From Halorubrum xinjiangense (GTDB lineage: Archaea > Halobacteriota > Halobacteria > Halobacteriales > Haloferacaceae), in contig NZ_FNBO01000008.1 in assembly GCF_900102375.1 (NCBI RefSeq), positions 1-64,000 on the forward strand: 64,000 bases of DNA. Reading direction: 5' to 3'. This document shows positions 888 through 6,937 of this stretch, in pieces. The position numbers were made by a program, and so were the translations under genes. How positions within the stretch are numbered: position 1 is the first letter of the stretch; every line of letters begins with the position of its first letter. Below the pieces are notes generated by a model. That model made no database searches and was not told where the DNA came from. It was given only the letters and a program-made list of their open reading frames with translations.

Positions 888-1265
888 TTATTCCGTTGCT
901 CGATACGCCTGACCGCCACGAACGATTCCCAGTACCGCGAGGAGGGCATACAGAACGGGCATATTTACGAGACCGAGATTCAGATAGCCGAGAACGGCGA
1001 ACGCAAGTGAGAGAACTCCAACAACGATCATAATGACTGAGTACACTTTCTGAAACTTCAAGAGCAGGAACACACCAGCGACGGAGATTAACGAGAAGAG
1101 GGCGCTGAGGAAATACGAATCGAGGTAGACGGAAACAAAAACCGCTCCGAAGAAAGCAACAACGATGAGTCCCACCCTACAGAGATTCCTCCGTAACTCC
1201 TGATCGATCACGTTGAGAGAGTTATATTCCAAGGAGAAACAGTTTATTCTTTTCGCAATTCTCAT
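888..1265 (-). CDS. Small multi-spanning membrane protein carried inside the IS
   Basis: This encodes a 125-residue protein with a short basic N-terminal segment (residues 1-30) and four likely membrane helices at about 31-48, 50-68, 74-93 and 99-116. No enzyme motif or named family was recognised. It is convergent with the transposase, 13 bp separating the two stops, and its start lies 38 bp inside the right terminal repeat, so it travels with the element if the element is still mobile. The 125-codon frame with coherent hydrophobic spacing argues that it is real, but nothing shows its role. It may be a captured host gene or a passenger that benefits the element. Confidence 0.6.
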   Translation of the reverse strand: MRIAKRINCFSLEYNSLNVIDQELRRNLCRVGLIVVAFFGAVFVSVYLDSYFLSALFSLISVAGVFLLLKFQKVYSVIMIVVGVLSLAFAVLGYLNLGLVNMPVLYALLAVLGIVRGGQAYRATE

Positions 1266-1442: not shown

Positions 1443-2612
1443 CTATGCGCGGAGGACCTCCATTCGAAGATATTTCGCAAGTTCATCTGGACCTGTCTCC
1501 GTTGGGATCCTCACTAACGTTGTCTTCGCATCAGCAAACGACTTCTTGTATACTGATTCAGTATCCTTTAGTATTTTTTGAGGAGTAGTATCCAATCCCG
1601 CGGAACAGAGAGCAGCACTATATTCAATTAACCAGTCTAACTCATCTATGATTACTCCTGTTGAACGACGTGCTAATTCAGGAGTAGATATATGTTCATG
1701 CTGAATCTGCTCTCTTTTTTCACGAATGAGATATATTGCAGCGCCCAAAGTCTGTCCTGTTGGTGGAGCCACCTGTCCATCAAATAATTTTTCTGGAGGT
1801 ACACGCCGCCGAACACCGTGATCTCCAAATTGCTGTTTACGCCACTTCCAGTGGGACCGATCAATCATTCCCTCAAGTAGTTCATTTTCATTGATTGTAC
1901 TTCCAGCGGTGTTATACGCGTAAATCATGCTTGACTTATAATAAGGGTAAACAACTCCATCTTCCGATATGAATGAGAGATCGTCACTCATAAAGTGAAT
2001 ATCATCTGATTGTTTTATTAGCATACTTGTTGAAGAGGTTTTACCCGCACCGCCAGCACCAGTCATAACAATCGCATTCTCTTCAAGCAAAATTGACGCA
2101 GAGTGAAGAAATGAAATCCCTTTTGAGAGAATCCATCCCTGTACTAGTGGCTCAAAAATATTGTAAACAAATGCTTTTGCGAGTCCGTTTGCGTAACTCA
2201 CAAATGTGTTGTTATTCGCCTGAAGAGCCCAACGTACAGGACTCAAATTATTTTCATACAATTTTCCATCATAATATATGTCAATTGAAAGTGTGCTTGA
2301 CTCCCAACCTTCTATTCGAAGAATACAGCCGCGCTGTCCAATTCGATCAGTTAGCCATGATACTGGCGGGCTATGTGGCCGCCTCTGATCTACGTGAATC
2401 ACACCATTCTCAAGAGTGATACTATCGGTTGCTTTCGTATTTAGATCCGTCGGAATTCCGATCTCCTGCCAATCATGGCCTCTTATTCGTATATCGGCAG
2501 GGGAATCTGAATTCTCAAGTTGGCCATACATCGTCTCTATTACATCTGTACAAAACGGATCGTCAGAGAAGGAAACAGTAAGTGGACCAATAAGAACAGA
2601 TCGCTCGGTCAT
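1443..2612 (-). CDS. HprK-like P-loop kinase-domain protein in a glycan cluster
   Basis: The 389-residue protein resembles the HPr kinase / PEP-carboxykinase-like P-loop fold. A Walker A motif, GAGGAGKT, lies at residues 185-192, followed about 20 residues later by FMSDDLSF (207-214), which matches the SDD signature of HprK-type proteins. The N-terminal ~160 residues carry no recognised domain. No PTS phosphocarrier gene is nearby. Related HprK-like proteins are known from bacterial and archaeal polysaccharide or peptide-modification clusters, where their substrates are mostly undefined. It is transcribed divergently from the sulfatase-like gene and is AT-richer than the bulk of the window. 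Nucleotide binding is well supported; the phosphorylated target is unknown. Confidence 0.75.
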   Translation of the reverse strand: MTERSVLIGPLTVSFSDDPFCTDVIETMYGQLENSDSPADIRIRGHDWQEIGIPTDLNTKATDSITLENGVIHVDQRRPHSPPVSWLTDRIGQRGCILRIEGWESSTLSIDIYYDGKLYENNLSPVRWALQANNNTFVSYANGLAKAFVYNIFEPLVQGWILSKGISFLHSASILLEENAIVMTGAGGAGKTSSTSMLIKQSDDIHFMSDDLSFISEDGVVYPYYKSSMIYAYNTAGSTINENELLEGMIDRSHWKWRKQQFGDHGVRRRVPPEKLFDGQVAPPTGQTLGAAIYLIREKREQIQHEHISTPELARRSTGVIIDELDWLIEYSAALCSAGLDTTPQKILKDTESVYKKSFADAKTTLVRIPTETGPDELAKYLRMEVLRA

Positions 2613-2771: not shown

Positions 2772-4196
2772 ATGGCCAATCCCAATATCCTCTTAGTAAT
2801 TCTTGATAGTGTGCGGGCCAAAAACACGAGTCTACACGGGTATGGAGAACGAACGACGCCCTTCTTAGAATCATTCACTGAAGAAGCAGAGTGGTACCGA
2901 CAGACACGAGCACCGAGTATCCATAGTGTCGCGAGCCACGCTAGCATCTTTACCGGACTACACGTGACCCAGCACGGCGTTACAAAACACGAGTCGCGAC
3001 TCGATCCCGACGCAACGGTCTGGTCGATGTTGTCGGAACAGGGCTACGAGACGGGCCTGTTCACGCCCAACGTGGTCGTCACAGAGTCCTCGAACCTCGC
3101 AGAGCCGTTCGATATAGTCTCGGGACCTCGACGAGACCCGAAACATCGATACTTCGAGAACGCTCTGTCCCCAAACGATATCGAGGGCCACCAAACGAGG
3201 GCAGAATATCTTTCGCGGTGTTTAAAGAGCGGCAAGCCGCTTCGGTCGGCATTTAATGGTCTCTACTTTCTCGCGGACAACACCGAAGAGTACGATCCTG
3301 AACAGGAGAGTGCGAACGGCTATATTGAGGAATTCATCAACTGGACAGCGGAAGAGGACGGACCGTGGGCAGCTTGCCTAAACTTCATGGATCCCCACTA
3401 CCCCTACAAGCCGGTATCGGGCTTTGAGTCCGCGGGCACCGAGGGACTCTCGGAGATCCACGATTCGCTGTCCTCGCCGATTTCAAAGGATGTGGCCACC
3501 TCGAAGCAGTGGTGGAAGCTCCGGGCGATCGAATCACTCTACGACGACTGTATCCGTCAAGCCGACGCCGCCGTTGAGAAGTTGGTTGATGAACTCCGAG
3601 CCCGTGGTGAACTCAATGATACTCTTCTCGTCATCACCAGCGACCATGGCGACGGTTTCGGCGAACACAGCCGCGTGGATCCTCGTGTCCGGGCCGCATA
3701 CCACAGTTGGGGAATCCATGAAGTACTGACTCACGTTCCGTTGCTTGTACGCCATCCCGATGGTTCTGATAGCGGGACCACAGATCAGCTTGCTAGTCTC
3801 ACTCAGTTTCCGTCGGTCGTTGAAGACACTCTCAATAACGAGCGGGGGAGCTTCGCAGTTGAGGAGTACGCCTTTGCCGCAACTGAACGTCTCGAACGAC
3901 CGGAAATAATGCTACCGGCCGAGTGTAAGGATCGTAAGCAGTACGGCGGTCCGTGGCGCGCGGTTTATGAACAGGACGGTGATACCGTCCGGAAGTATGC
4001 CACCCATGGAGAGGCTGCGGCGACGATTCATGTCAGAGACGCACAAGTGTCTTACCGAGTTGATGACAGAGAGGCGGCAGGCGTAGTCGAAGACCGATAC
4101 GAACATCTCGAATCGGCAGACGTGAGCGATGGAGAGACGAGTGATTTGGAGACATCGGTCGAGGATCGCTTGAAGGGTCTCGGTTATATACGGTAG
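2772..4196 (+). CDS. Sulfatase / alkaline-phosphatase superfamily enzyme
   Basis: A 474-residue metal-dependent hydrolase or transferase. Metal-binding segments are LDSVRA (Asp12) near the N-terminus, MDPHYPY (206-212) and TSDHGDGFGEH (289-299). At the position of the sulfatase nucleophile motif C-x-P-S-R it has S-V-A-S-H (residues 52-56), so the formylglycine cysteine is absent; Ser52 could be a nucleophile, or the protein may transfer a phospho or sulfo group instead of removing sulfate. The reading frame is open further upstream to 2715, but the ATG at 2772 directly precedes the conserved NPNILLVILDS strand and was chosen. It sits beside a flippase and a glycosyltransferase, which suggests action on a surface glycan. 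Confidence 0.85.
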   Translation: MANPNILLVILDSVRAKNTSLHGYGERTTPFLESFTEEAEWYRQTRAPSIHSVASHASIFTGLHVTQHGVTKHESRLDPDATVWSMLSEQGYETGLFTPNVVVTESSNLAEPFDIVSGPRRDPKHRYFENALSPNDIEGHQTRAEYLSRCLKSGKPLRSAFNGLYFLADNTEEYDPEQESANGYIEEFINWTAEEDGPWAACLNFMDPHYPYKPVSGFESAGTEGLSEIHDSLSSPISKDVATSKQWWKLRAIESLYDDCIRQADAAVEKLVDELRARGELNDTLLVITSDHGDGFGEHSRVDPRVRAAYHSWGIHEVLTHVPLLVRHPDGSDSGTTDQLASLTQFPSVVEDTLNNERGSFAVEEYAFAATERLERPEIMLPAECKDRKQYGGPWRAVYEQDGDTVRKYATHGEAAATIHVRDAQVSYRVDDREAAGVVEDRYEHLESADVSDGETSDLETSVEDRLKGLGYIR

Positions 4197-4198
4197 TC

Positions 4199-5623
4199 TT
4201 AGAACACTGGAATATTTTTTCTGATAATCCTTTTGAAATCTGCCGATAGTCCCCAAAGAAACGCAAAATACGCGGCAGCGCCAAGTACGACCAACACCGT
4301 TGTCGTGGCAGTGTTATTAATCGTGGAAAAAATTGGATTGGCAAGAATCTCTATCGCAACGACGACGAGGCCCATCCCAAGAGCAGCGGCAACCTGCGCA
4401 CCGATCCGGTCGATTGGCACGGAGATATCAATATGCCTGTTGAGGATGATATAACCTACTGTGAAACTCAAAAGCACAGACGTTATCGTGGCGCCTGCGG
4501 CCCCAAAAATGCCATATTCTCGAATTAAGGCGAAGTTCAACACGAGATTCGAGAGAATGAGAACGCTGTTAATTTTGAACGACTCGTCAGGTCGGTCGAT
4601 GGCGCTGAGAACATTGACAATTTGTCGCTGATAGCCGTAGACCAACACCGCCCCAATGAGTAGCCACAACACTTCGCTTCCATCGACAAACTCCGGACCA
4701 TACACGCGCAAGAGTCGTTCGCTCAGTAAGGCACCGCCGACTAGACCAGGGATCGTGAACAAGCCTGCGTAAGCTAACGAGTCTTCTAGCAACGAAGACA
4801 CCTGTACTGAGCTCTCATCGGCTGAGAGTTTACTCAGTTCTGGGAACAGTGACGAACTGATGGCGTTGCTGAAAATAATGAGGAAATTCGCAAGGTTCCA
4901 AGTGATTCCATAGACTCCGACTAAGGAGTCAGAAACGAAGACACCGAGAATGAGGATGTCGGCCTGATTGAATGTCTTTCCCTCAATGCGACCTAGCCAC
5001 GCGAATCGGGCATACTCGTAGAGGCTCCGAAAATGTTCTCGATTTGGGAGATGGTATGGCCCGCCGACGACGTAGAGGCCAATCAGAATGATAACGACAC
5101 CTCCGGTGGCGTACCCGTAGACAAGCGCTACTAATCCAAATGATAGTAGTATCCCACCCACCTGTACCAACGTCCGGATGACTCGTCGTACTGGCCGTAG
5201 TCCTGCGTAGACGTGGACAAGATGGACTCCCTGGAGTATTGCGTCAACGTAGGACCCCATGACGCCAACGATCAGCAGCAAGATCAGGAAATCGATCCGC
5301 TGGACACCGAAAAGTTGCTGGACGATATCCTCCCCGAGAATTAATGCGAGAACAATGGTCGCTGTCAGGGCTGCGATACAGAGGCCCCCTGCGACCTTGT
5401 AGGCCCCTCTGTTCTCACCCTCGCTCAAGCGCTTCGTAATTGCGCTCTCGAAACCTAACGTTCCGGCTAGGGCGAGCCAAGCGACGATTGACAGTAGAAG
5501 ATAGTACTGGCCGAGAATGTCTGCTCCGAGTAATCGAGCGAATACGATTGTCCCAACGAATCCCGCACCAGAGGAAACAAAAGTTGAGACGAAGGTTATG
5601 AACGATGTCTGTCCGATACGCAT
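4199..5623 (-). CDS. Oligosaccharide flippase (Wzx/MOP type)
   Basis: This 474-residue integral membrane protein has about 14 hydrophobic helices spread over its whole length and the N-terminal pattern MRIGQTSF...VSSGAGFVGTIVFARLLGADILGQYYLL typical of polysaccharide-exporter proteins of the MOP superfamily. Such proteins turn lipid-linked oligosaccharides from the cytoplasmic to the outer face before transfer to glycoproteins or polymers. The frame continues upstream to 5683, but the ATG at 5623 starts at the conserved segment. It is convergent with the sulfatase-like gene, with two bases between stop codons, and divergent from the glycosyltransferase. Confidence 0.88.
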   Translation of the reverse strand: MRIGQTSFITFVSTFVSSGAGFVGTIVFARLLGADILGQYYLLLSIVAWLALAGTLGFESAITKRLSEGENRGAYKVAGGLCIAALTATIVLALILGEDIVQQLFGVQRIDFLILLLIVGVMGSYVDAILQGVHLVHVYAGLRPVRRVIRTLVQVGGILLSFGLVALVYGYATGGVVIILIGLYVVGGPYHLPNREHFRSLYEYARFAWLGRIEGKTFNQADILILGVFVSDSLVGVYGITWNLANFLIIFSNAISSSLFPELSKLSADESSVQVSSLLEDSLAYAGLFTIPGLVGGALLSERLLRVYGPEFVDGSEVLWLLIGAVLVYGYQRQIVNVLSAIDRPDESFKINSVLILSNLVLNFALIREYGIFGAAGATITSVLLSFTVGYIILNRHIDISVPIDRIGAQVAAALGMGLVVVAIEILANPIFSTINNTATTTVLVVLGAAAYFAFLWGLSADFKRIIRKNIPVF

Positions 5624-5752
5624 CTGTATCGGCTCAAACGTCGGTAAGGAGTGGTTTATATTAGGCGGTCTGAGCATCGGCACCGATTGCTCAGCCCGGA
5701 TGAAACTACCGCATCGTGGTCTATATCAGTTACCCGGAACGTATAACCAGTA

Positions 5753-6937
5753 ATGACACGTATCCTTGTCTCTCCGGTCCACTCTCATATTTCGAACCGT
5801 GAGTACGGGAAGAGCTACAACATTCTAAATAATCTCCAAGATTCCACGTTCGAAATCGAAGCGTATGTTGGCGAGGCGGTGACGCCGATTGAGGCTGACA
5901 ACGTCATAATCCATGAACTCCACACTCGAAACAAATTGAAGTACTACGGACGGTGTTTTGAGACGGTTGCTAAGGAATTCTGTGCCGGTAACGTCGATAT
6001 CTACCATCATATGAATCTTAGCTATCGATGGTTCAATCCGGTCCTGCTCGCAGGGATTGGGTCCGATACTCCGACCGTTCTAGGTCCGTGTCAGGCCGGA
6101 CACGCAATTATGTCGGAAGAATTCAACACTCTGCTCGCTGGAGTCCTCAATCGAGAACTGCCAATGCCAGTAAGTAACGCGCTGTACTATCCTCTGGACG
6201 CGATCCGGGATATGACGATCGATCCTATCAGGATGGAACTGTTCAAAAAAACGCTGGCGGCGGCGGATCGGATCATTGTCGTCCACGAGGACGCGAAAGA
6301 TCTGTACACTCGATTCGTTGACGAGGCGAAAATAGAAGTGATTCCATTGGGAGTCGATCCGGAACTGTTCGAGTTCCAGGGGCGCTCAGAAACACAAGAA
6401 TTGGTCGCAATAGGACGACTTGATCGGCGGAAAGCCTACGATATTCTGCTGGAAGCTCTTGCTCAGATTGCCATGCCATTCCCAGATGTTCACCTCAACA
6501 TCTTCGGCCAAGGCCCTGAAGAAGAGGCATTGCGCGAACAGGCAGAAAAACTTGGCATCAGTGATAATCTCACATTTCATGGTTATGTCGACCAGTCCGT
6601 ACTGCGTGATTACCTTGCTGAAGCACGTGCGTTCGTTCATCCTTCACGCTCCGAGAGTTTCTCGCTGGTTCGGCTGGAGGCGATGGCTGTCGGCTGTCCG
6701 GTCGTTATTAGTGATATTGATGGTGCTCATGAGATGGTGAGGAGCGGGAAGGAAGGATTTGTCGTCCCTACAGAGTCAGCCGAAGCAATCGCAGACGCGG
6801 TCACAACACTTCTCGCAGATTTCGATCTTGCCAGTGAGATCGGACAGCAAGCCCGGGCGCGCGTTGAAGAAAAGTACGACTGGCGAACAATCGGTCAACA
6901 CTACCTCAATGTCTACAAGGATCTCCTGTCAGACTGA
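5753..6937 (+). CDS. Glycosyltransferase, GT4 family (GT-B fold)
   Basis: The 394-residue enzyme has the two-Rossmann-domain layout of GT-B glycosyltransferases. The C-terminal domain shows the sugar-nucleotide signature: AIGRLDRRKAYDILLEAL at 219-236, FGQGPEEEAL at 251-260 and the retaining E-x7-E pair (Glu301 and Glu309) in SESFSLVRLEAMAVGCP. It should add one sugar to a lipid-linked glycan on the cytoplasmic face. Donor and acceptor cannot be read from sequence. It is divergent from the flippase gene and convergent with the epimerase operon, and its base composition is AT-richer than genes to its right. Confidence 0.9.
   Translation: MTRILVSPVHSHISNREYGKSYNILNNLQDSTFEIEAYVGEAVTPIEADNVIIHELHTRNKLKYYGRCFETVAKEFCAGNVDIYHHMNLSYRWFNPVLLAGIGSDTPTVLGPCQAGHAIMSEEFNTLLAGVLNRELPMPVSNALYYPLDAIRDMTIDPIRMELFKKTLAAADRIIVVHEDAKDLYTRFVDEAKIEVIPLGVDPELFEFQGRSETQELVAIGRLDRRKAYDILLEALAQIAMPFPDVHLNIFGQGPEEEALREQAEKLGISDNLTFHGYVDQSVLRDYLAEARAFVHPSRSESFSLVRLEAMAVGCPVVISDIDGAHEMVRSGKEGFVVPTESAEAIADAVTTLLADFDLASEIGQQARARVEEKYDWRTIGQHYLNVYKDLLSD

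Follow-up and report, generated by a model that had tools for sequence, protein, structure and literature searches.

The window analysed in this study, a stretch of 64,000 nucleotides of Halorubrum xinjiangense DNA, starts at the end of a contig (C8) and carries close to that end an uninterrupted open reading frame with an ATG start on the minus strand (1443-2612), which encodes a kinase of the HprK/PEPCK superfamily of 389 amino acids. On one side of the kinase gene an insertion element (1-1319) ends within 123 bp of the kinase stop. On the other side lie an alkaline-phosphatase-superfamily gene (Pfam Sulfatase) on the plus strand (2772-4196, with the start taken as the ATG at 2772), a gene for a Wzx/MurJ-like polysaccharide flippase (4199-5683, minus strand) and a GT4 glycosyltransferase gene (5753-6937, plus strand). 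The kinase gene has a GC content of 43% in a window of 67% and a GC3 of 0.34, a composition that suggests recent lateral gain. The maximum 19-residue hydropathy of the protein is 1.1, and its sequence is that of a soluble protein.

The initial annotation had placed a Walker A motif, GAGGAGKT, at residues 185-192 and an SDD element at residues 209-211, and both are found there. The Walker A codons, computed from the end of the open reading frame at 2612, occupy 2037-2060 on the minus strand, and those of Ser209-Asp210-Asp211 occupy 1980-1988 on the same strand. In a profile alignment His170 (codon 2103-2105, minus strand), the P-loop and Asp210-Asp211 fall opposite His140, residues 155-162 and Asp178-Asp179 of Lactobacillus casei HprK, for which the roles of the catalytic residues have been described (PMC1885854). 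The histidine is invariant in the family. Among the five window-type homologues H170, G188, G190, K191, D210 and D211 are invariant together with some 35 further positions, and the histidine, the Gly-Lys of the P-loop and the first aspartate are invariant in all 28 domain homologues (28/28).

AlphaFold2 gave a model of the full-length kinase with a pLDDT of 83 and a pTM of 0.86 from nine homologues, and a model of residues 150-389 with a pLDDT of 92 from 28 homologues. All of the 50 PDB matches that Foldseek listed for the full-length model are PEPCKs, the best with an E-value of 1.6e-8; with the domain model PEPCK is again at the top (2e-7), and the L. casei and S. xylosus HprKs follow from rank 34 (2.5e-5). 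With both models the probability is 1.00 for nearly all matches listed. TM-scores to PDB entries are modest, at about 0.4-0.6 for PEPCK with 0.62 as the best value, and 0.25-0.3 (by query length) for HprK entries. A profile of the 28 domains, compared with PDB sequences as an independent line of evidence, points the same way, with HprK chains as its top five matches, of which 1jb1 was the best (2.1e-5). Structure prediction, Foldseek and profiles together support an HprK/PEPCK-type fold and active-site layout, as the description of the protein as an HprK-like kinase had proposed, and the predicted protein belongs to this superfamily on both counts.

The kinase stands apart from the curated families within the superfamily. 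No Pfam family was found over its cut-off, PF07475 and TIGR00679 gave no match over cut-off, and the N-terminal domain PF02603 gave none at all. The models of the HprK-related kinases A and B (TIGR04352 and TIGR04355) match weakly around the P-loop, with E-values of 0.0008-0.005 and scores of about 18 bits where the cut-off is 200. A PHROGs search returned one weak ATPase as its sole match, and a search of a defence library returned nothing. HPr kinase/phosphorylase (PF02603 plus PF07475) shares the fold superfamily and a His-(15)-P-loop-...-DD core that can be aligned, but the sequence match is limited to about residues 170-216 and the cut-offs of the HprK models are not reached. ATP-dependent PEPCK offers the best fold match, but at about 8-17% identity, with about 530 amino acids against the 389 of the kinase and without a match to the Pfam PEPCK model, so that the likeness is one of superfamily fold only.

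The closest homologues form a small group of the window type (group A), which contains the window protein, L002 (50% identity), L009 (30%), L003 (25%) and L004 (23%), with L005-L008 as a looser set (A'). Because these relatives in other haloarchaea are full-length, and because of the invariant positions, the kinase reading frame is more than a product of chance. Group A is rare, its five copies being spread over four genomes, with two of them in the same genome; the haloarchaeal samples, drawn at the level of class (392 genomes), family (171) and order (392), partly overlap. Scans of genome contigs, viral contigs and plasmids found no relatives. The larger sister group B (L057-L079, signature PAWRGAGKTN) aligns with group A over nearly the full length in profile comparison (99.3%), but its members mostly lie beside calcineurin-like phosphoesterase/dockerin and cohesin genes and not beside GT4. 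In most of these loci (L058-L079) the phosphoesterase is exported and has a dockerin-like tail, and kinase, phosphoesterase/dockerin and cohesin-domain protein form a recurring three-gene set in haloarchaea. No member of the GT4-coupled haloarchaeal branch exceeded a curated family cut-off where this was tested.

Lasso-peptide kinases of the PadeK/PsmK/ThcoK type are a more distant likeness. The haloarchaeal kinases of this type (group C, L081-L096) align with group A in the P-loop block (HHalign, 97.6%) but not over the full length, and the genes for precursor, B1/PqqD, B2 and C proteins that lie around them are absent around window-type kinases. The group C loci are lasso-type as judged by reading of their sequences, with PqqD, asparagine synthetase, B2 protease and ABC transporter genes, and often have between one and three genes for HprK-like kinases together with a nucleotidyltransferase-like gene. 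A RiPP reading of the window locus itself was rejected, since it has neither partner genes nor a precursor.

The initial annotation had seen a glycan operon in which the kinase sits beside a sulfatase-like enzyme. An archaeal glycan locus is what we find as well, but the kinase and the sulfatase-like gene are divergent and therefore do not form one operon. Sulfatases need a formylglycine cysteine within C-x-P/A-S/T-R. No CxPSR-type motif is present in the protein encoded at 2772-4196, which has SVASH at that place, with serine for cysteine in the nucleophile motif. This speaks against sulfatase activity, and the protein is more likely a phosphotransferase or phosphodiesterase. A conserved link between the two genes was also considered and, for the strict window-type family, rejected, because in only one of its five loci, that of the window, does a sulfatase-like gene lie within about 8 kb. 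The looser members L014-L016 do have one within that distance.

The insertion element has terminal inverted repeats of 17 nt and an 8-bp target duplication, AAATAGAG, and contigs C4 and C11 each end in a near-identical copy of it. Past the element C8 runs on as AAATAGAGGG, and on contig C21 the bases immediately preceding base 1 of the element are AAATAGAG. The 8-bp duplication thus identifies C21 as the original neighbour and makes C21 (at C21:1-95) and C8 (at window position 1) joinable through the element; a join of C21 to C4 was rejected because the C4 flank, TAATCTTAG, does not match the duplication. C21 contains a GT4 gene, a GT2 gene with a fused GT1-type domain, and the gene for the oligosaccharyltransferase AglB, with STT3, AglB core and L1 domains; no other AglB was detected in the source genome. 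With the element removed, the computed distance from the kinase stop to the start of this GT4 gene is about 229 bp on the same strand. The element, which now separates the kinase from its former neighbour, may uncouple the two. In the right third of the element, flanked by the transposase and the right end, is an open reading frame for a membrane protein of 125 amino acids (888-1265, minus strand), which is kept in the copies at C4 and C11 and looks like a passenger gene.

A GT4 gene lies directly upstream of the kinase on the same strand in L011, L014, L015, L016 and L057, at distances of -203 to +27 bp. These are raw counts from a simple open reading frame caller without a random-locus control, L014 and L015 are close relatives, and the 203-bp overlap in L015 is inflated by a mechanically chosen start that is probably too long. 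In L011 the gap is 2 bp, and the GT4 is 44% identical to that of C21; this locus also shares with C21 the GT2 (52%) and AglB (33%), again the only AglB detected in its genome. Linkage of the kinase to AglB is seen in only three of the seven related-kinase genomes that have AglB. An uncharacterised protein of about 285 amino acids with the motif GGDWD, which has no Pfam match over cut-off, recurs in haloarchaeal glycan loci (L010:10592-11455, L010:13695-14537 and L011:7167-8021).

HPr kinase is an enzyme of bacterial sugar control, and the kinase had been described as lying in a cluster without a PTS. It is true that no HPr gene was recognised within the 64,000-nt window, but the source genome does encode HPr elsewhere, on contig C14 (C14:64709, 90 bits), directly followed by enzyme I and then by DhaM/L/K-like genes. 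These genes mean that the genome has a PTS, which probably serves a dihydroxyacetone kinase. The presence of HPr and enzyme I, together with a serine at the Ser46 position of this HPr (seen by eye in the translation), is what could favour a genuine HPr kinase whose target is the HPr of its own genome. Against this, HPr is absent from genome G212, home to the closest relative and to one further window-type kinase, and from four other genomes with related kinases (G002, G368, G335 and G043), and across 97 haloarchaeal genomes HPr occurs in 40 but a PF07475 match over cut-off in none. Genomes that carry relatives of the kinase can thus lack HPr, which supports the view that HPr is not the general substrate of the related kinases. 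By its sequence the window kinase is not an HPr kinase, and we regard that explanation as the least probable of those considered. Taken with the surface-glycan gene context, the relatives in HPr-less genomes indicate that the kinase probably does not control sugar uptake but phosphorylates a sugar chain or the carrier protein of such a chain.

The computations show the fold family, the conserved catalytic residues, the position in a glycan locus and the independence of HPr, whereas catalysis and a glycan acceptor are inferred. The explanation that we prefer, although tentatively, is that of a cytoplasmic HprK-fold, ATP-dependent kinase of surface-glycan assembly, probably of an AglB-linked N-glycan, most likely phosphorylating a hydroxyl of the lipid-linked glycan. 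The P-loop would bind ATP, Asp210 and Asp211 would coordinate Mg2+ as well as activate the acceptor, and His170 would assist, as in HprK. Acting on the cytoplasmic side with its partner GT4, the kinase would transfer phosphate to a hydroxyl group on the lipid-linked glycan as it grows, before flipping and AglB transfer, and the strain would make a phosphorylated surface glycan. Several observations stand against this explanation: neither the L012 kinase nor that of L013 has a glycosyltransferase gene beside it, most full-length group B kinases are beside exported phosphoesterase/cohesin genes, AglB linkage is limited to three of the seven genomes mentioned above, and the TM-scores are modest. 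The kinases of this fold that have been characterised, PEPCK apart, to our knowledge act on serines of proteins or peptides (HPr, lasso peptides). The literature examined contained no phosphorylated haloarchaeal N-glycan, and a search for HPr kinase together with haloarchaeal glycosylation found no paper.

As acceptor we favour a glycan hydroxyl and place a peptide or protein serine next. A serine kinase similar to PadeK or PsmK, acting on a peptide or on a cell-surface or pathway protein, is a less likely but serious alternative, and the phosphate might then be glycosylated, as by PsmN. This chemistry is documented for the lasso peptide pseudomycoidin, in which PsmK phosphorylates a serine before hexoses are added by PsmN (PMC9266682). 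The P-loop block shared with the haloarchaeal group C kinases and the nucleotidyltransferase-like genes near the kinases of L011, L014 and L015 are in line with it, but the window has no nucleotidyltransferase motif, and the window-type loci showed none of the partner genes (PqqD, B2 protease, asparagine synthetase) and no convincing reading frame of precursor size. We consider it improbable that the kinase makes a soluble phosphorylated precursor, a sugar or polyol phosphate, for a nucleotidyltransferase and a glycosyltransferase. In its favour, PEPCK, the closest fold, is a small-molecule enzyme, the L012 and L013 kinases have a gene for a MobA-like nucleotidyltransferase and one resembling CDP-glycerol glycerophosphotransferase in their vicinity, and six domain members weakly match the FomB phosphonate kinase model. 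These genes, however, do not adjoin the kinase in other loci, and the FomB match may reflect the P-loop only.

Still less probable is a regulatory kinase that tunes glycosylation through the neighbouring glycosyltransferase or other proteins. HprK is itself a regulator and the coupling to GT4 genes is tight, but the very sporadic distribution of the family suits structural decoration better. The base composition and the element so close to the kinase stop could also be those of laterally acquired cargo that, uncoupled from its partner, has no current role, yet the reading frame is intact with every catalytic residue kept, which makes this a slight prospect.

Extended from the window to the GT4-paired HprK-fold kinases as a family, phosphorylation of lipid-linked glycans in AglB-type archaeal N-glycosylation, with a sugar as acceptor and phosphorylated N-glycans as product, is conceivable but doubtful at present. 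If it is true, the GT4-coupled haloarchaeal branch would extend the HprK fold into glycan assembly. Archaeal surface glycans are important for the stability of the cell and the attachment of viruses, and the kinase provides a concrete gene for testing whether they carry phosphate.
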